A stretch of 64,000 nucleotides of DNA from Actinomadura graeca (GTDB taxonomy: Bacteria; Actinomycetota; Actinomycetes; Streptosporangiales; Streptosporangiaceae): contig NZ_CP059572.1 in NCBI RefSeq assembly GCF_019175365.1, forward strand, positions 3,782,001 to 3,846,000, given 5' to 3'. The notes under the pieces were generated by a model. It saw only the letters and a program-made list of their open reading frames with translations. It was not told the DNA's origin and searched no databases. Shown in pieces: positions 10,188 to 21,396 of the stretch. Made by a program: the position numbers and the translations under genes. Numbering within the stretch: position 1 is the first letter of the stretch; each line of letters starts with the position of its first letter.

Positions 10188-12434
10188 ATGGGGACCGATC
10201 TGTCCGGAGCCCGCCGTGAACGGTGGGGCCCGGGACGCGGCAGAACGGCGATGGCCCTGGTCGTCGCACTGGCGGCCGGTCTGGTGACGGCCGTCGCATC
10301 GACGGCGCCCACCACGGCACCCGCGCTGGCCGCGGCGCCGGGCAAGCCGAAGGCGATCCTGTCGCTGGGCGACAGTTACATTTCGGGGGAGGCGGGACGC
10401 TGGGCCGGTAACGCCAACACCGGGGCCAGCGGCAGCGCGTGGGGCACCGACCTCGCCGCGATCTCCTGCCGGTCCGGACGGGAGGACAGCTGCGACCACG
10501 AGCCGAAGCTCGTCTACCTTGAGGACTCCGACGTCGACAAGGGCAACGGATGCCACAAGTCGAGAATGGCGGAGATCAAGGGCGCCGACATCGACGGGGT
10601 GGGAGAGCGCGACCGGCTCAACATCGCCTGCTCGGGGGCGGTGACCGACAACATCCTGTCCACCCGGTTCAAGGGCCAGATTCCGCAGATCGAGCAGCTG
10701 AGGGCCGCCGCCGCATCCCACGAGATCACCACGATCGTGCTGTCCATCAGCGGCAACGACCTGAAGTTCAGCGACATCATCGCGAAATGCGCCGACGCCT
10801 ACCTCCGCGGAAAACAGCTGTGCAGCGTCAGCGAGGCGCAGGCGTTCCGGAACCGGCTCCCGGAGGTCCGGGGCAAGGTCGTCGAAACGCTGCGGGAAAT
10901 CCACAAGGTGATGCAGGAGAGCGGCCAGGCCCGTGACAGCTACCGCCTGATCCTCCAGTCGTACCCGGCGGCCCTGCCGGCGAGCGACAAGTACCGCTGG
11001 CGCCAGCGCGGGACGTTCCTCTGGGAGCGGTACCGGAAGGGCGGCTGCCCGTTCATGAACGCCGACTCGGAATGGGCGAACAAGACGCTGATCCCGGGGA
11101 TCAGGGACATGCTGCGCGACGCCGCGTTCTCCACCAACGCGACGTTCCTGGACCTGACCGAGGCGTTCAAGGGACACGAGTTGTGCACCAACGAGGCCGA
11201 TCAGGCCGGCAAGGAGAACAACCGTGCCAATCCGCTGCTCGGCGAGAACGCGGAATGGGTTCGCTGGCTGCCCTATCTGAAGTTCCGCACGGCGCCCTGG
11301 GAGAGCCAGGGCCACCAGCAGGAGGCCATTCATCCGAACGCGTTCGGGCAGGAGGCGCTGAGCGCCTGCTTGTCGAAGACGGTCGCCGGTTCTCCTCAGC
11401 CCGGCCAGGCGTTCACATGCGTCGGGCAGGCCAGGGCCAAGCCCTCGGAGGTGCGGGTCGAGCGTGTGAAGGTGCACCAGGAGTCCTGGGGCCGCGACCT
11501 CATCAACAAGAGCGGCCGTCCCGCCGTGTTCACCTACGGCGACCAGCAGCACGCGTTCGCCAGGGACGGCGGCTGCCTGGAGCACATGTGGTGGTCGGCC
11601 GGCAGCGGCCTGAAGCGGGACCAGTGGGGTTGCGGCATCGACAGTGACCCGACCGCGTTCGTCATCGGCGACCAGCAGCATGTCTTCGCCAAGAGCCGCC
11701 GGTGCCTGGAGCACTTCTGGTGGAACGCCGGCGAGGACACGATCCACCGGAACCGGTGGGGGTGCGGTATCGACAGCGCCCCGGCCGGGTTCGCCTACGG
11801 CGAGCAGCAGCACGTCTTCGCCAAGAACGGCCGGTGCCTTGAGCACTACTGGTGGAAGCCCGGCAATCGCAGTGACCAGATCGACCACAACCGCTGGGGG
11901 TGCGACTTCGGCCTCACCGGCAATCCGGCAGTCTTCACCTACCAGGATCAGCAGCACGCCTTCATCCAGAACGGCCGGTGCCTCCAGCACTACTGGTGGA
12001 AGCCCGACAACGGCACCGACCAGATCGAGCACAACCGGTGGCGCTGCGATGTCCGGATCGACAGTGCCCCGGCCGTCTTCACCTACCGGGACCAGCAACA
12101 CGCCTTCGCCAAGAACGGCAACTGCCTGGAGCACTTCTGGTGGACGCCCACCCACGGCACCGACGAGATCGAGCACAACCGATGGGGGTGCGGCATCGAC
12201 TTCGTCCCGACCGCGTTCGTTCAGGGCGACCAGCAGCACGCCTTCGCCACGAACGAGAACTGCCTGGAACATTTCTGGTGGACGCCCACCCACGGCACCG
12301 ACGAGATCGAGCACGACCGGTGGGGCTGCGGCGTCGAGGGAACACCGGCGGGGTTCGGCACCGGAAACCAGCAGCACGTCTTCGCCATCGGGCAGGGACG
12401 GCCGCTCCAGCATTTCTGGTACGCCGGAGAATAG
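10188..12434 (+). CDS. Secreted SGNH/GDSL hydrolase with seven-blade Cys-paired propeller
   Basis: 748 residues. A basic N-region and hydrophobic core (TAMALVVALAAGLVTAVA) give a signal peptide cut near residue 50. The SGNH domain (about 55-410) has the GDSY block (Ser63), a Gly block (ACSGAVTDN), SGND (189-191) and IHPNAFGQ with His382, a complete catalytic set. Residues 448-748 are seven repeats of about 43 residues, each starting F-x-x-x-D/E-QQH-(A/V)F and containing CLEHFWW ... RWGC. Six blades have two Cys; the seventh is shorter and has lost them. Seven units suggest a closed beta-propeller with a disulfide per blade. It likely acts as an extracellular esterase or lipase targeted by the propeller. 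GGGGGT precedes the ATG. Confidence 0.85.
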   Translation: MGTDLSGARRERWGPGRGRTAMALVVALAAGLVTAVASTAPTTAPALAAAPGKPKAILSLGDSYISGEAGRWAGNANTGASGSAWGTDLAAISCRSGREDSCDHEPKLVYLEDSDVDKGNGCHKSRMAEIKGADIDGVGERDRLNIACSGAVTDNILSTRFKGQIPQIEQLRAAAASHEITTIVLSISGNDLKFSDIIAKCADAYLRGKQLCSVSEAQAFRNRLPEVRGKVVETLREIHKVMQESGQARDSYRLILQSYPAALPASDKYRWRQRGTFLWERYRKGGCPFMNADSEWANKTLIPGIRDMLRDAAFSTNATFLDLTEAFKGHELCTNEADQAGKENNRANPLLGENAEWVRWLPYLKFRTAPWESQGHQQEAIHPNAFGQEALSACLSKTVAGSPQPGQAFTCVGQARAKPSEVRVERVKVHQESWGRDLINKSGRPAVFTYGDQQHAFARDGGCLEHMWWSAGSGLKRDQWGCGIDSDPTAFVIGDQQHVFAKSRRCLEHFWWNAGEDTIHRNRWGCGIDSAPAGFAYGEQQHVFAKNGRCLEHYWWKPGNRSDQIDHNRWGCDFGLTGNPAVFTYQDQQHAFIQNGRCLQHYWWKPDNGTDQIEHNRWRCDVRIDSAPAVFTYRDQQHAFAKNGNCLEHFWWTPTHGTDEIEHNRWGCGIDFVPTAFVQGDQQHAFATNENCLEHFWWTPTHGTDEIEHDRWGCGVEGTPAGFGTGNQQHVFAIGQGRPLQHFWYAGE

Positions 12435-12535: not shown

Positions 12536-13354
12536 TCACCTCTCCCTGCGGGGGACGATCAGCGGGCGGCCCGTGCGGGGGTGCGGGAGCACCTCGACGT
12601 CGTGGCGGTAGACGTCGGTGAGCAGGGACGCGGTGAGGATCTCGTCCGGGGGGCCGCAGGCGGCGAGGCGGCCTTCGGACAGGACCGCCACGCGGTCGGC
12701 GTGGGCCGCGGCGAGGCCGAGGTCGTGGACGACGGCGACCACGGCGGCGCCCGAGGCGGCCCTGCGGCGGACGACCTCGAACACCATCTCCTGGTGGCGC
12801 AGGTCCAGGGCGGCGGTGGGCTCGTCCAGCAGGAGGATGCCCGTGCGCTGGGCGAGGACGCGGGCGAGTGCGACCCGCGCCTGTTCGCCGCCGGACAACC
12901 GCGGGTAGGGGCGGCCGGCGAACTCCGTCACGTCGGTCCGCCGCATGGCCTCGGTGACGGCGGCCTCGTCGTCGTCGGCGAGGGGCGTCGCCGACCAGGG
13001 GGCGCGGCCCATCGCGACGACCTGCCGGACGGTGAACGGGAACGCGAGGGTCTGCTTCTGCAGGAGGATCGCCCGCCGCATCGCCAGCTCGGCGTGGCTC
13101 CACGAGCCGAGCGGCGCGCCGTCCACGACGACGCGGCCCGTGAACGGGACGTCCCCGCCGACCGCCGCCAGGAGCGTGGATTTACCGGCGCCGTTCGGGC
13201 CGACGAGGGCCAGCACCTCACCGGTGCGGACGGCCAGGTCCAGGCCGGTGAGGACGGTCCGCGGGCCGCGTTCGACGCCGAGGTCCCGGACCTCGATCGC
13301 GGGTGAGCCGGGCGGCGCCGGGCGCGGCGGACGCGGGGCGCGTGCGCCGATCAT
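12536..13354 (-). CDS. hmuV: Heme ABC transporter ATP-binding protein
   Basis: 272 residues from ATG 13354, whose ATGA overlaps the stop of hmuU. Walker A GPNGAGKST (52-60), Q-loop region (LLQKQTLAFPF), signature LSGGEQARVALARV, Walker B ILLLDEPTAALD and a switch His (VVHDL) are all present. The FepC/HmuV family couples ATP hydrolysis to import through FecCD permeases. It is last in the operon surface protein - hmuT - hmuU - hmuV and should be repressed by iron through the box at 16184-16202. Confidence 0.93.
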   Translation of the reverse strand: MIGARAPRPPRPAPPGSPAIEVRDLGVERGPRTVLTGLDLAVRTGEVLALVGPNGAGKSTLLAAVGGDVPFTGRVVVDGAPLGSWSHAELAMRRAILLQKQTLAFPFTVRQVVAMGRAPWSATPLADDDEAAVTEAMRRTDVTEFAGRPYPRLSGGEQARVALARVLAQRTGILLLDEPTAALDLRHQEMVFEVVRRRAASGAAVVAVVHDLGLAAAHADRVAVLSEGRLAACGPPDEILTASLLTDVYRHDVEVLPHPRTGRPLIVPRRER

Positions 13355-14439
13355 GACCAGTTCCCCGGCCCGCCGCGGGCGCGGCGCAGCAGCCAGAAGA
13401 AGAACGGCCCGCCGAGCAGCGCGGTGAGGACGCCGAGGGGCAGTTCCTGGTAGGGGACCGCGGTGCGGGCGACGGTGTCGGCGGCGACGAGGACGACGGC
13501 GCCGCCGAGCGCGCCGGCGGGGATCAGCGTCCGGTGGCCGGGACCCGCCACGAGCCTGACCAGGTGCGGGACGACCAGCCCGACGAAGGAGATGACGCCC
13601 GCGAACGCCACGGCCGCCGAGGTCATCAGCGCGATCACGACGATCGAGGTGAACCGCAGCCGCTCGACGTCCACGCCCAGGTGGCGGGCGGTGCGCTCGC
13701 CGAGGGACAGCAGGTCGAGGCGGCGCGCGCAGGCGAGCGCGACCGCCATCCCCGCGGCGGCGACGGGGGTCACGGCGGCGACGGCGTTCCAGTTCGCGCC
13801 CGCGAGGCTGCCGAGGTTCCAGGTCGTGATGGCGCGCAGCGCGTCGTCGCCCGCGGCGAACATCAGCAGGCCGAGCAGCGCGCTCGCGACCGCGTTGACC
13901 GCGATGCCCGTCAGCAGCAGCGTCACGACCTCGGTGCCGCCGCCCGAGCGGGACACCGCGTAGACGAGCAGGGTGGTGACCAGGCCGCACCCGAACGCGG
14001 CGGTCATGATCGTCCAGCTGCCGAGGGTGGACAGGCCGAACACGATGACGGTGGCGGCGCCGACCGCCGCGCCCCAGGAGACGCCGATGACGGCGGGCTC
14101 GGCGAGGGGGTTGCCGAACACGCCCTGCATGACGGCGCCGGAGCAGCCGAGCGACGCGCCCACGACGACCGCGAGCGCCACCCGGGGGAAGCGGACGATC
14201 CACAGCGCGTTGTCGCCCTGCGCCGCGGTGGGCCGGGGGCCGACGTCCAGCCCGAGGTGGTGCAGGAGGGAGCCGATGACCTGGTCGGGCGGGATGTCGA
14301 CCTGGCCGGTCCCGGCGGCGACCACGCACAGCGCCGCCAGGGCGAGGGCCAGCCCGGGGAGCAGCGCCGTCCCGGGCAGCCGCCGGCGGCCGCGCCCGCT
14401 CGCGGCCTTCCCCGGCGGGCGTTTCGTGGCCGTCTCCAT
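13351..14439 (-). CDS. hmuU: Heme/iron ABC transporter permease (FecCD family)
   Basis: 362 residues with about nine to ten hydrophobic helices. Family marks include RFPRVALAVVVGASLGCSGAVMQGVFGNPLAEPAVIGVSWGAA and the cytoplasmic EAA-like loop near VPHLVR. The first 25 residues are Lys/Arg-rich and cytosolic. Its ATG shares one base with the hmuT stop (TGATG), so translation is coupled. With HmuT and HmuV it forms the inner-membrane importer for heme or an iron chelate. The heme assignment rests on the heme oxygenase encoded in the same island. Confidence 0.92.
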   Translation of the reverse strand: METATKRPPGKAASGRGRRRLPGTALLPGLALALAALCVVAAGTGQVDIPPDQVIGSLLHHLGLDVGPRPTAAQGDNALWIVRFPRVALAVVVGASLGCSGAVMQGVFGNPLAEPAVIGVSWGAAVGAATVIVFGLSTLGSWTIMTAAFGCGLVTTLLVYAVSRSGGGTEVVTLLLTGIAVNAVASALLGLLMFAAGDDALRAITTWNLGSLAGANWNAVAAVTPVAAAGMAVALACARRLDLLSLGERTARHLGVDVERLRFTSIVVIALMTSAAVAFAGVISFVGLVVPHLVRLVAGPGHRTLIPAGALGGAVVLVAADTVARTAVPYQELPLGVLTALLGGPFFFWLLRRARGGPGNWS

Positions 14440-15470
14440 CAGCAGGCCCGGTGGACGGCGGCGGCGAGCGCGCCGATGGTCTCGGCCGTGCGGGACCCGA
14501 AGGACAGCAGGGTGCCGTCGTCGACGTCCACGATCCGCCGGTTCCGGCCGGCGGGGGTCTGCGCGACGCCCGGCAGCCTCAGCAGCCCGTCCACCCCGCC
14601 GACGGACCGGAGTCCGGCCGACAGGACGAGCAGCACGTCCGGGGCCGCGTTGATCATCCCTTCGCTGGTGAGCGGGCGGAAGCCGGACAGGCCGAGGGCG
14701 CTGCCCGCGTCGGCTCCGCCGGCGGCCTCGATCATGGCGTCCGGCCCCGCGCCCTTCCCGCCGACGAGGTACACGCCCGCGTTGCCCCGGACGTACAGGA
14801 ACGCGACCTTCGGCCGGTCGCCGGACGCCGGGCGCGCGGCGGCCCTGATCTCGCGGTCCACGCGCGCGGCCAGCTCGCGTCCCGCGGCGGGCACGCCGAG
14901 CGCGGCGGCGACGGCGGTGATGTGCGGGCCGATCGCGGTGAGCGTCTCCTCGTCGTCCACGAGCACGACGGGGATGCCCGAGCGGCGGAGCTGGGCGAGC
15001 ACCTCGGGCGGGCCGATGCTCCTATCCGTGATCACCACGGACGGGTCGAGCTTCAGGATCGCCTCGGCGGACAGGTCGTGGCCCTGCGCGGTCACCAGCG
15101 GCAGCCTCCGGGCGGCGGGGAAGGTGGTGGAGACGTCCCGGCCGACGAGCCGGCCGCCGAGGCCGAGGCCGTGCACGATCTCGGCGAGCGAGCCGTAGAG
15201 GTTGACCGCGAGGACGCGGCGCGCGTCGCGGACGGTGACGCCGGTGCCGTCGGCGGAGCGCACGGTGACCGGCAGTTTCGGCTCCGGCGCGTCCTTGACG
15301 GGGACGGGGTCGCCCTTGGGCGCCGCGACCGTGGCGGCGCAGCCGCGGGCGGAGCGCCCGGCGGCGGGTGCGGCGCCGGGCCCCGCGGCCGTGCCGGTGC
15401 CGCAGGCGGCCAGCGGCAGCGCGCACGCCAGGGCGAGGGTCGCGGCCAGGGCGCGGGACGGACGGGTCAC
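14439..15470 (-). CDS. hmuT: Heme-binding substrate lipoprotein
   Basis: 343 residues from GTG 15470, which overlaps the stop of the upstream gene (GTGA). A lipoprotein signal ends in LAAC with Cys23 as the lipidation site. The body is a class III periplasmic-binding fold: RVLAVNLYGSLAEIVHGLGLGGRLVGRDVST, SAEAILKLDPSVVITD, then VVLVDDEETLTAIGPHI, typical of HmuT/BtuF proteins. A Tyr and a His in the two lobes normally bind heme; NLYGS and TAQGHD are the candidate positions. It passes heme from the surface proteins to HmuU. Confidence 0.9.
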   Translation of the reverse strand: MTRPSRALAATLALACALPLAACGTGTAAGPGAAPAAGRSARGCAATVAAPKGDPVPVKDAPEPKLPVTVRSADGTGVTVRDARRVLAVNLYGSLAEIVHGLGLGGRLVGRDVSTTFPAARRLPLVTAQGHDLSAEAILKLDPSVVITDRSIGPPEVLAQLRRSGIPVVLVDDEETLTAIGPHITAVAAALGVPAAGRELAARVDREIRAAARPASGDRPKVAFLYVRGNAGVYLVGGKGAGPDAMIEAAGGADAGSALGLSGFRPLTSEGMINAAPDVLLVLSAGLRSVGGVDGLLRLPGVAQTPAGRNRRIVDVDDGTLLSFGSRTAETIGALAAAVHRAC

Positions 15471-16120
15471 GAGCCGGTTCCCGCGGGCGTCCTGCGGCGG
15501 CGCAGCAGCACGAACGCCGCGCCCGCGACGACCACGACGGCGCCCGCGCCGGACGCCGCCCATACCCAGGCGGGCGTGCCGCCGTCCCCGAACGTCACCG
15601 GGACCCGCACGTCCTGCGAGCGGTCGGACGTGCGGGTGTGGTCGGCGCGGGTGACGACGGCGCAGCGCACCTCGGCGCAGTCCGCGCCGGCGGAGAGGGC
15701 GGCGCCGATCCGGAGCGTCACGTCGAAGGTGCCGCCGGGCCCGTACGGGACGGCCAGGCCCTTGCCGTACGGGGGCGGGTTGGACGAGACCCACTGCGAC
15801 GCGCCGGCCTTCCCGGTGGTGTCGGCGCCGCCGCCGCAGGGGGAGGGCGCCTTGCCCGCGCCGTTGTCCCTGCACAGGGCGACGTAGACGCCCTTGCCGG
15901 TGTTGTAGCCCGTCCCGCGAACACGGACGGTGGCGCCCTTGGCGGGCAGGCCGTCCGCCCGCGAGACGGTGAGGGTCTGCCCGGACGGGCCGGTGCCGCG
16001 GCCCTCCTTGGCGGGCGCGGACGCGGCGTGCGCGGCCGCGGGCGGGACGAGCACCGCGCCCGCGGCGGCGGTCAGTGCGAGCGCCGCCACGCGGCGTGTG
16101 GTGAGGGGAGGAACGTGCAT
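15467..16120 (-). CDS. Surface-anchored neocarzinostatin-like (Ig-fold) protein, first gene of hmu operon
   Basis: 217 residues from ATG 16120, with GGAAAG 4 nt before it. Signal peptide to about residue 32, an extracellular domain, then a C-terminal membrane helix (WVWAASGAGAVVVVAGAAFVLL) and RRRR, so it is anchored facing outward. The domain follows the neocarzinostatin/macromomycin plan: GATVRVRGTGYNTGKGVYVALC..., a first Cys pair and a second pair (CAEVRC), ending DRSQDVRVPVTF. The motif TSDRSQD recurs in the two proteins encoded on the other strand. Since no HtaA domain is present, this is the likely surface heme or hemoprotein receptor of the system (inference). It is iron-regulated by the box at 16184-16202. 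Confidence 0.75.
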   Translation of the reverse strand: MHVPPLTTRRVAALALTAAAGAVLVPPAAAHAASAPAKEGRGTGPSGQTLTVSRADGLPAKGATVRVRGTGYNTGKGVYVALCRDNGAGKAPSPCGGGADTTGKAGASQWVSSNPPPYGKGLAVPYGPGGTFDVTLRIGAALSAGADCAEVRCAVVTRADHTRTSDRSQDVRVPVTFGDGGTPAWVWAASGAGAVVVVAGAAFVLLRRRRTPAGTGS

Positions 16121-16183
16121 GGGGCTTTCCAACTTTCGAGCTGTGCGGCCCACCAGGGGCTTTACCGGGATCCCGGATGTAGA

Positions 16184-16202
16184 TTAGCTTAGGCTTACCT
16201 AA
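16184..16202. promoter_or_regulatory. DtxR/IdeR-like iron box in divergent promoter
   Basis: TTAGCTTAGGCTTACCTAA closely matches the DtxR/IdeR consensus. For the leftward operon it fills the 16-nt spacer between TTGAAG (16203-16208) and TAATCT (16181-16186), so repressor binding would block RNA polymerase. It also lies 17 nt before the rightward start at 16219. A CCGGGATCCCGG palindrome (16165-16176) is next to it. Confidence 0.8.
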
Positions 16203-16218
16203 CTTCAAGAGGTGAGAC

Positions 16219-17070
16219 TTGCCTAACTCCCCGGTGCTCCGGCGCGCGGCGATCCCCGCCTCTGTCACGGCCGCCGCCCTCGCCGCGTTCGCGCTCGCGG
16301 CCACACCCGCCCACGCCGCCGCCGTGCGGGTGTCCCCCACGTCCGGCGTGAACCCCGCCGGGCAGACGGTCACGGTGAGTGGTTCCGGCTTCGACGCCGA
16401 CCGCAACAACGGCTTCGGCGTCTACGTCGTGTTCGGGCCCCGGCGCGCCGACTGGGTGACCGACTCCAACGCCTACCTCGCGGCCCGATGGGTGCACCGC
16501 GGCGCGTCCGGAAGCGGCGGGCAGGCGCCGATGAGCTCCTCCGGAGGCTTCTCGGTCAGCCTCTCGGTGAAGGCCAAGTACACCGACGGCAGCGGCAGGA
16601 AGGTCGACTGCCTGAAGACCCAGTGCTACGTCATGACCATGGCGGCGCACGGCGTCCCCGACCGCAGCCAGGATACCGCCACCCCGATCCGCTTCACGGG
16701 CTCCGGCCCCGGATCGGGGGGCGGGACGGGTTCCGGCGGCGGGGCGGGGACGGGCGGCTCGTCCGGCACCGGTACGGGCGGTGGGACGTCCTCCGGGTCG
16801 GGGACGGGCGCACAGGGCGGGGCGGGCGGGTCCGCTCCGGCCGGCGGCCCGTCCAGCACCGCGTCCGGCGCGCCCTCAGCGGTGGCGGCGCCGGGCGCGG
16901 TGTCCCCGGACGGCCTGTCCCCCGCGGGCGCGTTCGAGCAGACGCCCTCCGGCGGGCGGGCCGGATCGCCGTGGCCGTTCTGGGCCGTGACCGGAGCCGC
17001 CGTCCTCGCCGTGCCGGCCGCCCGGCACGTCGCCCGCCGCCGTGGGGCCCACCGGCGGAACCCGTCATGA
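16219..17070 (+). CDS. Membrane-anchored neocarzinostatin-like surface protein
   Basis: 283 residues from a TTG start with AGAGG 6 nt upstream. Signal peptide (to AHAAA, about residue 34), an Ig-fold domain (about 35-155) with VSPTSGVNPAGQTVTVSGSGF, then KYTDGSGRKVDCLKTQCYV and MAAHGVPDRSQD. The Cys pair CLKTQC matches the second disulfide loop of neocarzinostatin. A Gly/Ser/Thr-rich linker of about 90 residues can span the cell wall and is followed by a C-terminal helix (WPFWAVTGAAVLAVPAA) and a basic tail. It is about 60% alike in the domain to 17156-18145. Probably a heme or hemoprotein-binding surface component. Conserved Tyr and His (CYVMTMAAHG) are candidate ligands. Confidence 0.75.
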   Translation: MPNSPVLRRAAIPASVTAAALAAFALAATPAHAAAVRVSPTSGVNPAGQTVTVSGSGFDADRNNGFGVYVVFGPRRADWVTDSNAYLAARWVHRGASGSGGQAPMSSSGGFSVSLSVKAKYTDGSGRKVDCLKTQCYVMTMAAHGVPDRSQDTATPIRFTGSGPGSGGGTGSGGGAGTGGSSGTGTGGGTSSGSGTGAQGGAGGSAPAGGPSSTASGAPSAVAAPGAVSPDGLSPAGAFEQTPSGGRAGSPWPFWAVTGAAVLAVPAARHVARRRGAHRRNPS

Positions 17071-17084
17071 CCGGGACACCCCTC

Positions 17085-17138
17085 TTGATCTGCGGCGGCA
17101 CTCCTGTACAGTCCCGATCTTAGGTAAGCCTTACCTAA
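17085..17138 (+). promoter_or_regulatory. Promoter plus perfect DtxR/IdeR-like box
   Basis: TTGATC (17085-17090), 16 nt, TACAGT (17107-17112), then TTAGGTAAGCCTTACCTAA at 17120-17138. The box is a perfect 9-bp inverted repeat around one central base and should overlap the transcription start. It lies 18 nt before the ATG at 17156. Confidence 0.82.
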
Positions 17139-17155
17139 GTTTTCGAGAGGAACCG

Positions 17156-18145
17156 ATGTCCAGACGCAAGACGAGGGCGACCGTGCGGCTCGCCCGCGGC
17201 GCGGCCCTGCTCGCCGCCGCCGGGCTGACCACGATCGGGCTCGGCGCCGCCCCGGCGCTCGCGGCCGGTCCCGCGACCACCGTCACCCCCGCGACCGGGG
17301 CCGACCCCGAGGGCGCGACCCTCACCGTCCACGGCAGCGGGTTCAACGCCAACGCCAACAACGGCCTCGGCGTCTACGCCGTGTTCGGGCCGAAGGGCCC
17401 CGACTACGCCACCAACGCGAACGCCTACCAGGCGTCCAAGTGGGTGCACAAAGGGGCCACTCCCAGCGCCGGGCAGGCCGTCATGAACGCCGACGGCACC
17501 TTCGACCTCACCTTCACCGGCATCAAGGCCACGTACACCGACGGCGACGGCAAGCAGGTCGACTGCCTGAAGACGCAGTGCTACGTCATCACGATGGCGG
17601 CGCACGGCCTGCCCGACCGCAGCCAGGACAGCTTCACCCCCGTCACGTTCACCGGCGGGGAGAATCCCGGCCCGGGCCCCGGCCCCGGCACCCCCGCGGG
17701 GACGGGACAGCAGAAGCTGTCCACCAAGGTCGCCAACGGGGCGCTCACCCTCGCCCTGGCCGGTGACAGCGCCGAGCTGAGCGCGGTGGCGCCCGGCAAG
17801 CACTCCACCGGCGCGCTACGCGCCGCGACCGTCACCGACGCACGCGGCACCCAGGCGGGCTGGAGCCTCGTCGGCGAGGTCACCGACTTCGGCCGCGCGG
17901 CGGGCGGGACGATCCCGGCGGCCGGGCTCGCCTGGTCCCCGACCGCGCGTGTCGTGGACGACGGCTCGCAGGGCACGGTCACCCCCGGCGCGGCGGGCAC
18001 CCTCGGGGCGCCCCGTACGCTCGCGTCGTCGGCCGCCGGATCCAGCGGCGGCGTGTTCGAGGCCGGCGCCGGACTGGACCTCAGCGTCCCGGCGGGCACC
18101 GCGCCCGGCGACTACACGGCCACCCTCACCCTGACCCTGTCCTAA
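17156..18145 (+). CDS. Secreted neocarzinostatin-like protein with C-terminal WxL-like domain
   Basis: 329 residues from ATG 17156 (GAGAGG upstream). Signal peptide to about residue 38. The Ig-fold domain (about 40-155) repeats the island's motif: VTPATGADPEGATLTVHGSGF, YTDGDGKQVDCLKTQCYV and MAAHGLPDRSQD. A Gly/Pro linker follows. Residues about 175-329 resemble a WxL cell-wall domain: TDARGTQAGWSLVGEVTDF carries the first W-x-L, and the end (DYTATLTLTLS) matches the second motif YxxxLTWxL with Leu for Trp. There is no membrane helix, so attachment would be non-covalent, fitting the DUF916 protein encoded next. It probably captures heme at the wall under iron limitation. Confidence 0.75.
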   Translation: MSRRKTRATVRLARGAALLAAAGLTTIGLGAAPALAAGPATTVTPATGADPEGATLTVHGSGFNANANNGLGVYAVFGPKGPDYATNANAYQASKWVHKGATPSAGQAVMNADGTFDLTFTGIKATYTDGDGKQVDCLKTQCYVITMAAHGLPDRSQDSFTPVTFTGGENPGPGPGPGTPAGTGQQKLSTKVANGALTLALAGDSAELSAVAPGKHSTGALRAATVTDARGTQAGWSLVGEVTDFGRAAGGTIPAAGLAWSPTARVVDDGSQGTVTPGAAGTLGAPRTLASSAAGSSGGVFEAGAGLDLSVPAGTAPGDYTATLTLTLS

Positions 18146-18200
18146 GCCCGGGACCTGAGGGCGAGCCGCCAGGCGAGCCCGCCGGGCCGGGGCCGCAAAG

Positions 18201-18237
18201 GAAGGGGTGGGGATGGTCGAAGCATCCCCACCCCTTC
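18201..18237. terminator. Strong hairpin between WxL and DUF916 genes
   Basis: GAAGGGGTGGGGATG and CATCCCCACCCCTTC are perfect 15-nt arms with a 7-nt loop (GTCGAAG). There is no T-run, but such stems often terminate or stabilise transcripts in actinomycetes. It may give the WxL gene higher expression than the genes after it. Confidence 0.7.
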
Positions 18238-18268
18238 AATCGCAGAGAGTACGCGGAGTCATTTCCTG

Positions 18269-19315
18269 ATGAACGCAAAGCGCGGAGCCGCCGTCGTGGC
18301 CGCGGTGACCGCACTGGCCGCGTCCACGGCCGTCCCGGTACCGGCCTCCGCCCACGCCGGGGCCGCGCCGGTCGCCGCCGGGGGCATCCCTCGTGGCGCC
18401 GCTCGTGGCGCCGCGCCCTCGCCGGACGGGTTCGCCTGGTCGGTCAAGCCCGCCGGTGCCAAGGGGCAGTCGCGGCGCGACTTCTTCGTCTACGCGGTCT
18501 CGCCCGGCCAGCAGGTGCGCGACAAGGTGGTCGTCACGAACATGAGCACGCGGAAGCTGACCTTCCGCGTGTACGCCACCGACGCGTTCAACACCGCGGA
18601 CGGCTCGTTCGCGCTGCTCGCCGCGGACCGCACGGCCACCGACGTCGGCACCTGGATCAGCGTCGCGGGCGCGCCCGCGCGCACCGTCGCGCCCGGCCGC
18701 TCCGCCGGGCTGCCGTTCACGCTGACCGTCCCGCCCGGCGCCACGCCGGGCGACCACTCCGGCGGCGTGATCGCCGCCGTCACCGAGCAGACCACCGGCG
18801 GCCAGGGGCAGCGCGTCAACGTCGACCGCCGGATCGCCGCCCGCGTGTACGCGCGGGTGGACGGCGCTCTCACCTCGTCCCTGCGGGTGGAGGGCCTGAA
18901 GGCCGCGCACGACCGGCCCCTGTTCGGCGGCGGTGACGTGGACGTCACCTACCGGATCCGCAACACGGGGAACGTGCGGCTCGCCGCGACCGCGCGGGCC
19001 GGTGTCAGCGGCCCGTTCGGCACGGGCCTCGGCAGCCCGGCCACGCGGCGGGTCCCCGAGCTGCTGCCCGGCAACGTCTACACCTTCACCGACCGGGTCC
19101 GCGGCGTGTACCCGGCGGGTCCGCTGACCGCGACGCTGCGTCTGACGCCCGCGGCCGCGGCGGACGGCCCGTCCGGCGGCTCCCCGGCGGGAGCGCGGCC
19201 GACCGTCCGGACCACCGGGTGGTGGGCGACGCCGTGGGCGCCGCTCGCGGGGGTCGTGTTCGCCGTCGTCCTCGCCGCGTACCTGGTGCGGCGCCGCCGC
19301 AGGGCCAGGGCATGA
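18269..19315 (+). CDS. DUF916 (WxL-interacting) membrane-anchored protein
   Basis: 348 residues. Signal peptide, then FAWSVKPAGAKGQSRRDFFVYAVSPGQQVRDKVVVTNMSTRKLTFRVYATDAFN, the standard start of DUF916 (PF06030). The central part has PPGATPGDHSGGVIAAV and RVYARVDG, and a second Ig-like unit reads VDVTYRIRNTGNVRL. The C-terminal helix (PWAPLAGVVFAVVLAAYLV) and RRRRR anchor it. In Firmicutes, DUF916 proteins pair with WxL proteins and hold them at the peptidoglycan, so it likely docks the product of 17156-18145. Its ribosome site is weak (GGAG 11 nt away). The stop overlaps the next start (ATGA). Confidence 0.85.
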   Translation: MNAKRGAAVVAAVTALAASTAVPVPASAHAGAAPVAAGGIPRGAARGAAPSPDGFAWSVKPAGAKGQSRRDFFVYAVSPGQQVRDKVVVTNMSTRKLTFRVYATDAFNTADGSFALLAADRTATDVGTWISVAGAPARTVAPGRSAGLPFTLTVPPGATPGDHSGGVIAAVTEQTTGGQGQRVNVDRRIAARVYARVDGALTSSLRVEGLKAAHDRPLFGGGDVDVTYRIRNTGNVRLAATARAGVSGPFGTGLGSPATRRVPELLPGNVYTFTDRVRGVYPAGPLTATLRLTPAAAADGPSGGSPAGARPTVRTTGWWATPWAPLAGVVFAVVLAAYLVRRRRRARA

Positions 19316-20463
19316 GGACGCTGCTGGCGGCGGCGCTGGCCGTCCCGCCGCTCTCCCTCGCGGCGCCCGGCCCGGCCGTCGAGATCGACCGCGCCGAGGC
19401 GCGCGTGGGCGACACCGTCACCGTGGACCTGGCGGCGTGGCCGTCCGGCAACGTGCTGATCGAGCTGTGCGGCAACGGCGGGACGCGCGGCTCGGCCGAC
19501 TGCGCCGTCGCGGCGGCGGCGACCACGTTCGTCGACGCCAAGGGGCGCGGCACGGCGATGGTCACGGTCGTCAGGCCGCCGATCGGCTGCCCGTGCGTGA
19601 TCTCCGTGCGCCCGGTCGCCGGGGGGCGTGCGCGGACGGTCCCGCTGGCGGTCAAGGGCGTTCCGTCCCTGTCGTCCGCGCAGCGCCGCGCCGTGTCCGC
19701 CGCGCCCGTGCGCGACCTCGCCGTCTCGGGGATCCGGGTGACCGGCGGCGGCCCGTGGCCCGCCTGGCTCGGCGGACCCGCGACGCGGACGGTCACCTTC
19801 ACCGTGCGCAACACCGGCGCCGCGCCCGTCACCGACCCGCCGCTCACACTGGCGGCCGGACGCGGCGCCGAGCCCACCGGGATCCTGGACGCGCCGAAGA
19901 TCGGGACGCTGGCGCCCGGGCAGGAGCGGACGTTCTCCGTGCGCGCCCGGCTGCCGGGCCCCGCGTTCGGCCGGTACACGGTCGCCGGGGAGCTGACCGG
20001 CGTCGACCGGCCCGCGCGGTTCACCGCGCGGACCTCGTCCTACCCGTGGGCGCTGCCCGCCCTGATCGTGCTCGCGGCACCCCTCGCCGCCGTCAGGGAG
20101 TTCCGCCGTCCCCGCGGCCGCGCCGGACGCGGGCCCGCCGCGCCGCCGCGCGCCGTCGCCATGAACGAGATCGTCGCCCTGAACGTCGGGCAGTGGCGGC
20201 GGCTGCGCAACCTGTCGAGGTCCGCGCTGGCCGAGGCGCTCACCCCGCTCACCGGGGCGGCGTGGACGGACCGCGACGTCGAGCGCGCGGAGACCTTCGT
20301 CCCGCCCCGGCGGTTCGACGCCGACGAGCTGCTGGCGCTCAGCCGCGCCCTCGACGTCCCGCTGCCGGCGCTCCTGCTCCCGCCGTCCGGCTACGAGATC
20401 GCGCCTCCCGCCGCCCCGGTCGTCGGTTCGGGGCGGGCGCCCGCCGCCGGCCCGTCCGCCTAG
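19312..20463 (+). CDS. Membrane protein: two Ig-like ectodomains, one helix, cytoplasmic HTH-like tail
   Basis: 383 residues from ATG 19312 (ATGA overlap with the DUF916 gene). The short signal is followed by an Ig-like domain with two Cys pairs (VLIELCGNGG...SADC and IGCPC), again neocarzinostatin-like. A CARDB-like domain follows (VRDLAVSGIRV, VTFTVRNTGAAPVTDPPLTL, ERTFSVRARLPG). One helix (WALPALIVLAAPLAAV) leads to a basic segment and about 100 residues reading ALNVGQWRRLRNLSRSALAEAL...DVERAE...ALSRALDVPLPALLL, which has the spacing of an XRE-type helix-turn-helix. This could be a one-component transmembrane regulator sensing heme loading. An internal ATG at 20161 could alternatively express the HTH part alone. 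Confidence 0.65.
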   Translation: MRTLLAAALAVPPLSLAAPGPAVEIDRAEARVGDTVTVDLAAWPSGNVLIELCGNGGTRGSADCAVAAAATTFVDAKGRGTAMVTVVRPPIGCPCVISVRPVAGGRARTVPLAVKGVPSLSSAQRRAVSAAPVRDLAVSGIRVTGGGPWPAWLGGPATRTVTFTVRNTGAAPVTDPPLTLAAGRGAEPTGILDAPKIGTLAPGQERTFSVRARLPGPAFGRYTVAGELTGVDRPARFTARTSSYPWALPALIVLAAPLAAVREFRRPRGRAGRGPAAPPRAVAMNEIVALNVGQWRRLRNLSRSALAEALTPLTGAAWTDRDVERAETFVPPRRFDADELLALSRALDVPLPALLLPPSGYEIAPPAAPVVGSGRAPAAGPSA

Positions 20464-20475
20464 AGAAGGAGAGCC

Positions 20476-21396
20476 ATGGAGCAGGAACCGTTCACCGCCG
20501 AGGTGGTCGCGGCGATAGCCCGCCACATGAACGACGACCACGCCGAGGACTCGGTGCTGATCGTGCGGGCGCTCGGCGGGCAGCCGGCGGCCACGGCCGC
20601 GGTGATGACCGGGATGGACGCCGACGGGATCGACTTCTCCGTCCAGGTGGACGGGCGTCCGGTGCCGGTCCGCATCCCCTTCGGCGAGCGGCTGACGGAG
20701 CGGGCGCAGGTGCGCGCCGAGGTGGTGCGCATGTACGAGAAGGCCCGCGAGGGCCTGCGGTTCTCGGTCAGGTTGCGCACCGCCACCCAGCCCGACCACC
20801 GGGACACCGAGCACTCCCCCTACATGGACGCGCTCGTCGAGGGGCGGCTCTCCAGGGACGAGTACGCGCTGCTGGTCGGGCAGCTCTCCTTCGTCTACGA
20901 CGTCCTGGAACAGGCGGCCGACGCGATGCGCGACGACGAGGTCGCCGGCGCGTTCGACTTCGCCGGTTTCCGCCGCCTGGACGCCCTGCACGCCGACCTG
21001 GAGTTCTTCCACGGGCCGGACTGGCGCGAGCACGTCCGGGCCGACGAGGCGACCCGCCGCTACTGCGACCGGCTCCGCGAGGTGTGCTTCGACTGGGCGG
21101 GGGGCTTCGTCGCCCACCACTACACCCGCTACCTCGGCGACCTGTCCGGCGGGCAGGTCATCGCCCGGCGGCTCAAGGGCGCCTATGGGCTCGACGACGG
21201 CGAGGGCCTGCGCTTCTACCAGTTCACGGGACGGCCGAAGGCGCTGAAGGACCGGTACCGGGTCCTGCTCGACACCGCGCCGTGGGACGAGGCGGAGCGC
21301 GCGCGCATCATCGCCGAGGTGAAGACCGCCTACCGGCTGAACTCGGAGCTGATCACCGCGCTGGGCCGCCGCCTGCCCATCGACCCGGCCGCGTGA
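20476..21396 (+). CDS. hmuO: Heme oxygenase fused to N-terminal DUF2470 domain
   Basis: 306 residues, AGAAGGAG before ATG 20476, 12 nt after the previous gene. Residues about 8-85 (IARHMNDDHAEDSVLIVRALGG, MDADGIDFSV) are a DUF2470 domain, which occurs in heme-utilisation proteins. Residues about 98-306 are a biliverdin-forming heme oxygenase. The proximal ligand is His108 in DHRDTEH, and the distal-helix signature is YLGDLSGGQVIARRLKG. It opens imported heme in the cytosol to biliverdin, CO and Fe(II), completing the path surface proteins - HmuTUV - HmuO. The fusion suggests that DUF2470 delivers or senses heme. Confidence 0.92.
   Translation: MEQEPFTAEVVAAIARHMNDDHAEDSVLIVRALGGQPAATAAVMTGMDADGIDFSVQVDGRPVPVRIPFGERLTERAQVRAEVVRMYEKAREGLRFSVRLRTATQPDHRDTEHSPYMDALVEGRLSRDEYALLVGQLSFVYDVLEQAADAMRDDEVAGAFDFAGFRRLDALHADLEFFHGPDWREHVRADEATRRYCDRLREVCFDWAGGFVAHHYTRYLGDLSGGQVIARRLKGAYGLDDGEGLRFYQFTGRPKALKDRYRVLLDTAPWDEAERARIIAEVKTAYRLNSELITALGRRLPIDPAA

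Follow-up and report, generated by a model that had tools for sequence, protein, structure and literature searches.

A 64,000-nucleotide stretch of the Actinomadura graeca genome (the window; the genome, G000 in our survey, is about 9 Mb) carries a locus in which genes for a heme importer and a heme oxygenase frame a set of probably exported proteins, four of which are predicted to be folded like neocarzinostatin (NCS). By its proteins the genome is closest to others of Actinomadura. On the minus strand the genes run in the order A, hmuT, hmuU and hmuV. The stop codon of A (15467–16120) overlaps the GTG start of hmuT (14439–15470), which encodes a heme-binding lipoprotein with a lipobox-like LAAC motif and a Peripla_BP_2 match. 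The next gene, hmuU (13351–14439), encodes a FecCD-type permease (PF01032, 307 bits) and hmuV (12536–13354), whose ATG overlaps the hmuU stop, the ATPase of a heme ATP-binding cassette (ABC) transporter (ABC_tran; NF010068, 314.9 bits against a cut-off of 261). The three successive overlaps are GTGA, TGATG and ATGA. The plus strand holds B (16219–17070), C (17156–18145), a gene for a WxL-interacting protein (WxLIP; 18269–19315), D (19312–20463), which overlaps the WxLIP gene by ATGA, and, after a gap of 12 bases, the gene for a heme oxygenase with an N-terminal DUF2470 domain (20476–21396; PF01126, 178 bits; PF10615, 81 bits). The closest solved relative of HmuT found with phmmer is HmuT of Corynebacterium glutamicum (5az3, E = 1.4e-63), in which His141 and Tyr240 are the heme ligands and Arg242 a hydrogen-bond partner (PMC4926363). 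All three residues of the heme site are kept in the alignment and, judged by these residues and the heme-type ATPase over its cut-off, HmuTUV is a heme-type importer.

A, B and C each have a predicted signal peptide followed by an NCS-type domain (at about 15584–15982, 16318–16701 and 17258–17659, respectively). In A this is followed by a predicted C-terminal membrane helix and in B by a long linker rich in Gly, Ser and Pro and a helix that the structure model places at residues 252–278; neither protein has a further recognised domain. C ends in a WxL-like wall-binding domain, the match scoring just below the Pfam cut-off (23.7 bits against 25), and a hydropathy scan found no membrane helix in it. 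D is built from an NCS-type domain (residues 19–116), a second Ig-like domain (134–243), a membrane helix and a helical cytoplasmic tail. The WxLIP protein has a C-terminal membrane helix, matches PF06030 with 32.1 bits (cut-off 27.3) and has no match in the PDB by sequence at E ≤ 0.1; proteins of this kind are proposed to bind WxL domains and have a membrane helix (PMC10599100). Translation of A probably starts at the ATG at 16120 instead of the GTG at 16153, which would give a predicted protein (P0051) of 217 residues. By the simple hydropathy scan, A, B, C and the WxLIP protein have a hydrophobic stretch at the N-terminus, and A, the WxLIP protein and D have one that could act as an anchor; the N-terminus of D and the C-terminal helix of B lie under its threshold. 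From these predictions, export and anchoring of the proteins seem likely.

The NCS-type domains of B and C contain the Cys loop CLKTQC, and that of A, which has four Cys and a single His, the variant CAEVRC. B also carries the motif AAHG. DRSQD is present in exactly three of the candidates, A, B and C. The NCS domain of D has no His, Tyr or DRxQD and its only Cys motif is CPC. The preliminary description had hmuTUV and the heme oxygenase gene framing four exported NCS-like proteins with a CLKTQC-type loop, three of them with DRSQD. The framing genes and the DRSQD count stand; the candidates number five, however, of which that at 18269–19315 is the WxLIP protein and not NCS-like, and the loop reads CLKTQC only in B and C, being CAEVRC in A and reduced to CPC in D.

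Neocarzinostatin is the protein carrier of an antitumour antibiotic, and folds of its type are known for sheltering enediyne drugs. The fold proposed earlier is borne out by the structure models, in which B, after structural re-alignment of Foldseek candidates, and the first domain of D are predicted to adopt it; we take A to D to share this predicted fold. The similarity in sequence to the neocarzinostatin-family apoproteins is weak. With the local Pfam model, PF00960.24, A scores 15.4 bits (cut-off 25) and B, C and D have no match at E ≤ 1, while the newer PF00960.26 is listed for B (P0001) and not for A (P0051); we did not read the local model's miss of B and C as absence from the family. 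A phmmer search of B against the PDB returned matches without bearing, mostly of low complexity from the Gly/Ser linker, and a domain alignment was used instead. All four proteins fall below the 86-bit cut-off of the enediyne chromoprotein model NF040680 (A 26.5, B 36.6, C 31.6 and D 18.0 bits). Among the five window neighbours scanned none matched an enediyne biosynthesis family and one matched nothing, the rest of the genome not being searched for such genes; with the scores so far from the cut-off, the idea of an enediyne self-protection cassette was dropped. PF04213, the family of the HtaA or CR domain, has no match in the nine proteins at the locus or in the whole genome, and no NEAT family was among the Pfam matches (E ≤ 1) of the same nine proteins, to which that search was limited.

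A profile of the domain (A2) finds three domains in the genome, all in this locus (E = 2.9e-37 for A and 9.6e-59 for C; range 2.9e-37 to 1.3e-62). The same search at E ≤ 1e-5 gave a match in 15 of 396 genomes of the phylum and in 22 of 200 genomes of the family, our own included in each, counts that are lower bounds as at most 10 or 21 first-look candidates were scored per genome. Around the matches in 35 other genomes 36 stretches were taken, of 20 kb where the contig allowed, the matches having been picked without use of gene neighbourhood. Thirty of the 36 have hmuT on the same stretch as the NCS gene, so that the proposed conservation of such genes next to hmuTUV is confirmed; the remaining six are L031, L032, L037, L039, L058 (at a contig end) and L073 (a 4.7-kb contig). 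In the phylum sample HmuT (E ≤ 1e-30) was found in 14 of the 15 NCS genomes as against 18 of the 381 others (Fisher p = 3e-16), or in 13 of 14 if our own genome is excluded (p = 4e-15); as the genomes are related these p-values are only a guide. NCS genes lie beside hmuT in 11 genomes of this sample, own included, under 8 family codes. The profile E-values, the location of all three of the genome's domains at this locus and the recurrence of the arrangement in other families place the matches beyond chance. A broader NCS model found no domain in 18 HmuT loci of NCS-free genomes, nor in L092 and L093, whose genomes have NCS genes elsewhere; most of these loci were drawn for lacking NCS, so this shows only that no divergent copy was overlooked. 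At L031 (8169–12099) and L039 (8184–11062) two A-type NCS genes stand together at a distance from hmuTUV; an iron box lies a short way in front of each pair, and both genomes have their hmuTUV–HtaA locus elsewhere.

The preliminary description had NCS-fold proteins in use instead of HtaA. This is true of the Actinomadura genome and of 16 of the 30 hmu-linked stretches, which by comparison of coordinates have no HtaA domain (one of them, L057, is a 6.7-kb contig), but the other 14 have HtaA too (L034 below the cut-off), which is why we gave up the view that HtaA is replaced by the NCS domain throughout. Across the 36 NCS genomes, 25 have a PF04213 match. At 12 of the 36 loci NCS and HtaA domains are encoded in one open frame (L032, L033, L035, L036, L038, L043, L058, L060, L061, L068, L071 and L072), and at L032 the encoded protein exceeds the Pfam cut-offs of both families (HtaA, 100.6 against 24; Neocarzinostat, 26.1 against 25). 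A 1400-residue frame at L036 (8662–12861), adjoining hmuTUV, has six NCS-type domains followed by two HtaA domains. With HtaA so often on the same stretch, and frequently within one polypeptide with it, the NCS domain is a partner of HtaA no less than its substitute. Four genomes of the phylum sample, from four families (G000, G162, G252 and G374), have NCS genes beside hmuTUV and no HtaA match genome-wide. The 32 HmuT genomes divide into 4 with NCS only, 7 with HtaA only, 10 with both and 11 with neither; the HmuT loci of the last group are L074–L084.

Two iron boxes lie in the locus, TTAGCTTAGGCTTACCTAA at 16184–16202 between the divergent A and B genes, and the palindrome TTAGGTAAGCCTTACCTAA at 17120–17138 in front of C. 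Against what we take to be the DtxR/IdeR/DmdR consensus the first has two mismatches and the second three on the plus and two on the minus strand; no other site in the window has five mismatches or fewer on either strand, except one that overlaps the first in a shifted position. A box with up to four mismatches occurs in 24 of the 36 NCS stretches, mostly near the NCS or hmuT gene, in 7 of 20 HmuT stretches without NCS and in none of 112 mononucleotide shuffles. Boxes also stand shortly before the NCS genes off hmuTUV at L031, L032 and L039. These sites suggest that the locus is regulated by iron. In Streptomyces coelicolor a locus homologous to hmuO, htaA and hmuTUV is in the predicted DmdR1 (iron) regulon (PMC12161575).

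Residue conservation was counted over 97 NCS domains from the surveyed loci. The loop Cys columns hold Cys in 81 and 80 domains, and a His is conserved in 82. The columns D, R, Q and D of DRxQD are kept in 75, 79, 73 and 81 domains, with Asn at the first Asp in 13 more; the Tyr of GxY is present in 93 and a Trp in 87. Among 19 A-type proteins, picked from the best 120 of 329 homologues, the C, C, R, DHTR, DR and D columns are invariant, and 13 of the 19 match PF00960.24 at E ≤ 0.01. The conserved His lies eight residues past the second Cys of the loop in A and B, being the only His of the domain in A. Of the Tyr and His singled out earlier in the segment CYV(M/I)TMAAHG, the His is the conserved one; in place of the Tyr, proteins of the A type carry Ala, Val or some other residue. 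The second loop Cys presumably corresponds to C93 of neocarzinostatin and, counting from it without gaps puts V95 and G96 on the strand that reads CYVMT in B and CAVVT in A, with the conserved His five residues past G96 in the following loop. V95 and G96 belong, with V34, G35, Q36, L45 and V108 among others, to the floor of the chromophore cleft, F52 and C37–C47 lying below the enediyne (PMC2694159). By this counting the most conserved segment would sit at the cleft.

The NF040680 model led to 20 loci, of which 19 were readable (L106 is cut by a contig end), each being read on past the match. The His eight residues after the loop Cys is present in three of them, at L104 (an hmu locus), L108 (HtaA-fused, with an iron box) and L112 (the window), and DRxQD in L112 only. 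The other 16 lack the His, including L094, the sole match over the chromoprotein cut-off in the 396 genomes. There are near misses at L101, with a His seven residues after the Cys, and L098, with DRSQI. L101 (2524321–2524719 of G214) is an NCS-like domain with an iron box that departs from the consensus at four positions; an HtaA domain follows some 250 bases downstream. It is the second HtaA–NCS site of a genome that also has an hmu-linked one. Partial matches at L109, L110 and L113, from class f3/g3 genomes, resemble D in their motifs LICGQ, GGTNSCANADGRAV and PCPCVVH, and perhaps form with it a wider family of short D-like NCS domains with a CPC motif.

In a tree built from the 97 domains with two outgroups the A-type domains (41 rows, 99/98) and those of B and C type (24 rows, 99/98) form groups, 11 B-like proteins forming one branch (95/93). 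A third group of 8 rows (98/92) has an NDH or NDR motif in seven, and HtaA is close or fused in all. The deep branching order is left open, given the few columns, long branches and unsettled bootstrap. A-type genes look to be the most widespread NCS type, with 329 homologues at E ≤ 0.001; of the best 120, those with names are mostly called hypothetical protein and some "Neocarzinostatin family".

The reading we prefer, to which we give a probability of roughly 55%, is that this is a heme-uptake locus with iron boxes, whose probably exported proteins of predicted NCS fold take up heme at the surface and pass it to HmuT. C, which its WxL-like domain and the WxLIP protein would hold at the wall, and B, which is probably membrane-bound and would reach out on its long linker, would capture heme or remove it from hemoproteins. 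A is predicted to be membrane-anchored and, its gene overlapping hmuT by 4 bases, would be made together with HmuT and serve as the last acceptor before it; HmuUV would then import the heme and the heme oxygenase open it. Within the domain the cleft, where enediyne carriers keep a flat aromatic ligand, would accommodate the porphyrin. The iron ligand would probably be the conserved His, on a loop by the cleft floor, to which DRxQD would give its shape. Gene content, overlaps, iron-box sequences, conservation and the linkage to hmuTUV and HtaA are observed, whereas fold, export and anchoring are predictions; that heme is bound, by which residue, in which direction it moves and that iron regulates the locus is what we infer. 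A receptor role for the NCS-type proteins seems likely, and here they likely stand in for HtaA, which would make them a new class of bacterial heme receptor.

Several observations weigh against this reading. With Foldseek alone the full-length model of B matched Ig and other domains, at a best E of 2.4e-3, with no NCS protein among the matches listed, and the His was placed at the cleft by ungapped counting from the Cys loop, not from model coordinates. That His is missing from 15 of the 97 domains, and D, which has the fold without His, Tyr or DRxQD in its NCS domain, implies that not every copy can bind in this way. Four full 20-kb NCS stretches (L031, L032, L037 and L039) hold no hmuT, five of 11 genomes of the same genus, own included, gave no match in the family search, and of the 30 of 396 genomes that NF040680 matches at E ≤ 0.001, 19 lie outside the 15 NCS genomes. 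A box is absent from 12 of the 36 NCS loci (L034, L037, L040–L044, L058, L060 and L071–L073), among them all five hmu-linked loci outside our own class (L040–L044) at this threshold. The 11 of 32 HmuT genomes with neither an NCS nor an HtaA match indicate that neither kind of surface domain is a strict requirement.

The NCS-type domains might instead bind hemoproteins or a protein partner, such as a hemoglobin-like protein, HtaA or HmuT, heme being held only by HtaA, where present, and HmuT. We think this unlikely, if the most serious of the alternatives: NCS and HtaA domains share polypeptides, DRxQD and the His are close together on a single stretch, as would suit a patch for protein contact, and D keeps the fold without His or Tyr, but the four genomes without an HtaA match would need a non-HtaA donor to HmuT, and the enediyne carriers of this fold bind small flat ligands. 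It is still less probable that the domains are structural spacers or stalks that bind no ligand themselves and serve to display the machinery across the cell wall. Ig-like domains often serve as spacers, some copies are strongly divergent and tandem copies occur, up to six per frame at L036; spacer surfaces normally vary, however, and DH and DR..D are kept in all 19 aligned A-type proteins from the best 120, while A and B carry a single NCS domain and nothing else recognised. The fold being that of a small-molecule carrier, the ligand could also be a different iron-linked compound (another metalloporphyrin, coproporphyrin or a siderophore), or the proteins could sequester enediynes, in a locus only partly concerned with heme. 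The few iron-boxed NCS genes off hmuTUV (L031, L032 and L039) would fit this, but with a heme-type HmuT that has all three heme-site residues, a heme oxygenase in the locus, NF040680 scores of 18.0–36.6 bits against a cut-off of 86 and no enediyne family in the five neighbours scanned (the genome was not searched) we regard it as very improbable.

Between C and the WxLIP gene the plus strand has a strong hairpin with a 15-bp stem and no T-run after it (18200–18237); the RNA fold of 18185–18260 has an energy of -38.9 kcal/mol (z -4.67), with none of 200 shuffles as stable. As a guess, it might act in mRNA processing or partial attenuation and could raise C above the downstream genes. The cytoplasmic tail of D (20161–20460) is a bundle of helices, mostly confident in the model, for which reason a sensor role was weighed; D could be a membrane-bound sensor-regulator of the locus, a lead only. 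In Pfam the tail has a weak match to HTH_3 (E = 0.025, missing the cut-off), the only one among six tails, and NCBIfam gave nothing helix-turn-helix-like in five tails. To the left of the heme locus, 10188–12434 encodes a protein with a GDSL-like hydrolase match that misses the Pfam cut-off and five DUF346 repeats (QQHxFAKNGxCLEHYWW) that exceed the threshold.

By analogy, the relay we propose would be the Isd and HtaA/HtaB/HmuT scheme with another domain (PMC8977872, PMC4926363). The HtaA, HtaB and ChtA receptors of Corynebacterium (PF04213) are likewise exported or membrane-anchored surface proteins beside hmuTUV that feed HmuT, and in relatives of our locus HtaA is fused to the same NCS-type domain; the CR domain is, however, another beta-sandwich, in which a Tyr in helix alpha1 holds the heme with a helper His or Tyr (PMC12494546). 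The Isd NEAT relay of Firmicutes would be a parallel as a chain of surface Ig-like domains ending at the lipoprotein of an ABC importer (PMC8977872), but here the domain family differs, anchoring would be by WxL/WxLIP and membrane helices, and no NEAT domain was found in the nine proteins scanned. The enediyne apoproteins (neocarzinostatin, macromomycin, C-1027, actinoxanthin and kedarcidin) share the predicted fold, weak sequence similarity and the second Cys loop; the window proteins, in contrast, are below the chromoprotein cut-off, are predicted to be anchored in membrane or wall, have an added His and DRxQD and are surrounded by heme genes instead of enediyne genes. ThiX of the C. glutamicum bcc-aa3 supercomplex (PDB 7qhm chain M) is the only PDB match of the A-type profile at E ≤ 10 (E = 2.9e-9) and keeps the DH motif, but is a lipoprotein bound to the respiratory chain whose soluble domain is unresolved in the structure and whose activity is not known (PMC8795186). 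Since ThiX is related in sequence to the A-type domain, an NCS-type domain would sit on the respiratory chain too. In the WxL/WxLIP clusters of Firmicutes a WxL-like protein also lies beside a WxLIP protein; here the WxL-like protein, whose WxL score is just under the cut-off, has an NCS-type domain as its cargo and belongs to an actinobacterial heme locus.

No paper was found that tied neocarzinostatin to heme uptake, and among those listed none joined it to HtaA or dealt with iron-linked, membrane-anchored secreted NCS proteins of Streptomyces; most subscription journals lay outside the search, so the absence is unproven. The listed papers on neocarzinostatin and heme had nothing about uptake in their titles and abstract openings, two of them only citing work on NCS-based artificial biocatalysts. 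Likely, if unproven, this is a surface heme relay of the Gram-positive kind that employs a domain without a known part in such relays, and we did not find it described in the literature searched. A group of NCS relatives, many labelled hypothetical protein, is thereby traced to iron-boxed heme loci and to fusions with HtaA. Should they bind heme, the phylum would gain a new class of heme receptor, a fold that already serves engineers as a scaffold would acquire porphyrin as a natural ligand, and it could be tested whether the enediyne carriers were taken over from nutrient uptake or the other way round. More tentatively, and with somewhat more doubt than confidence, we suggest a third class of surface heme-relay domain in actinobacteria beside NEAT and HtaA/CR, with the NCS fold and a His ligand at the cleft mouth, acting alone in some lineages and with CR in others, the A-type protein being the common last step before HmuT. 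If this is true, enediyne carriers and heme receptors would both go back to a single ancestral carrier of small molecules in the actinobacterial envelope, put to two different uses.

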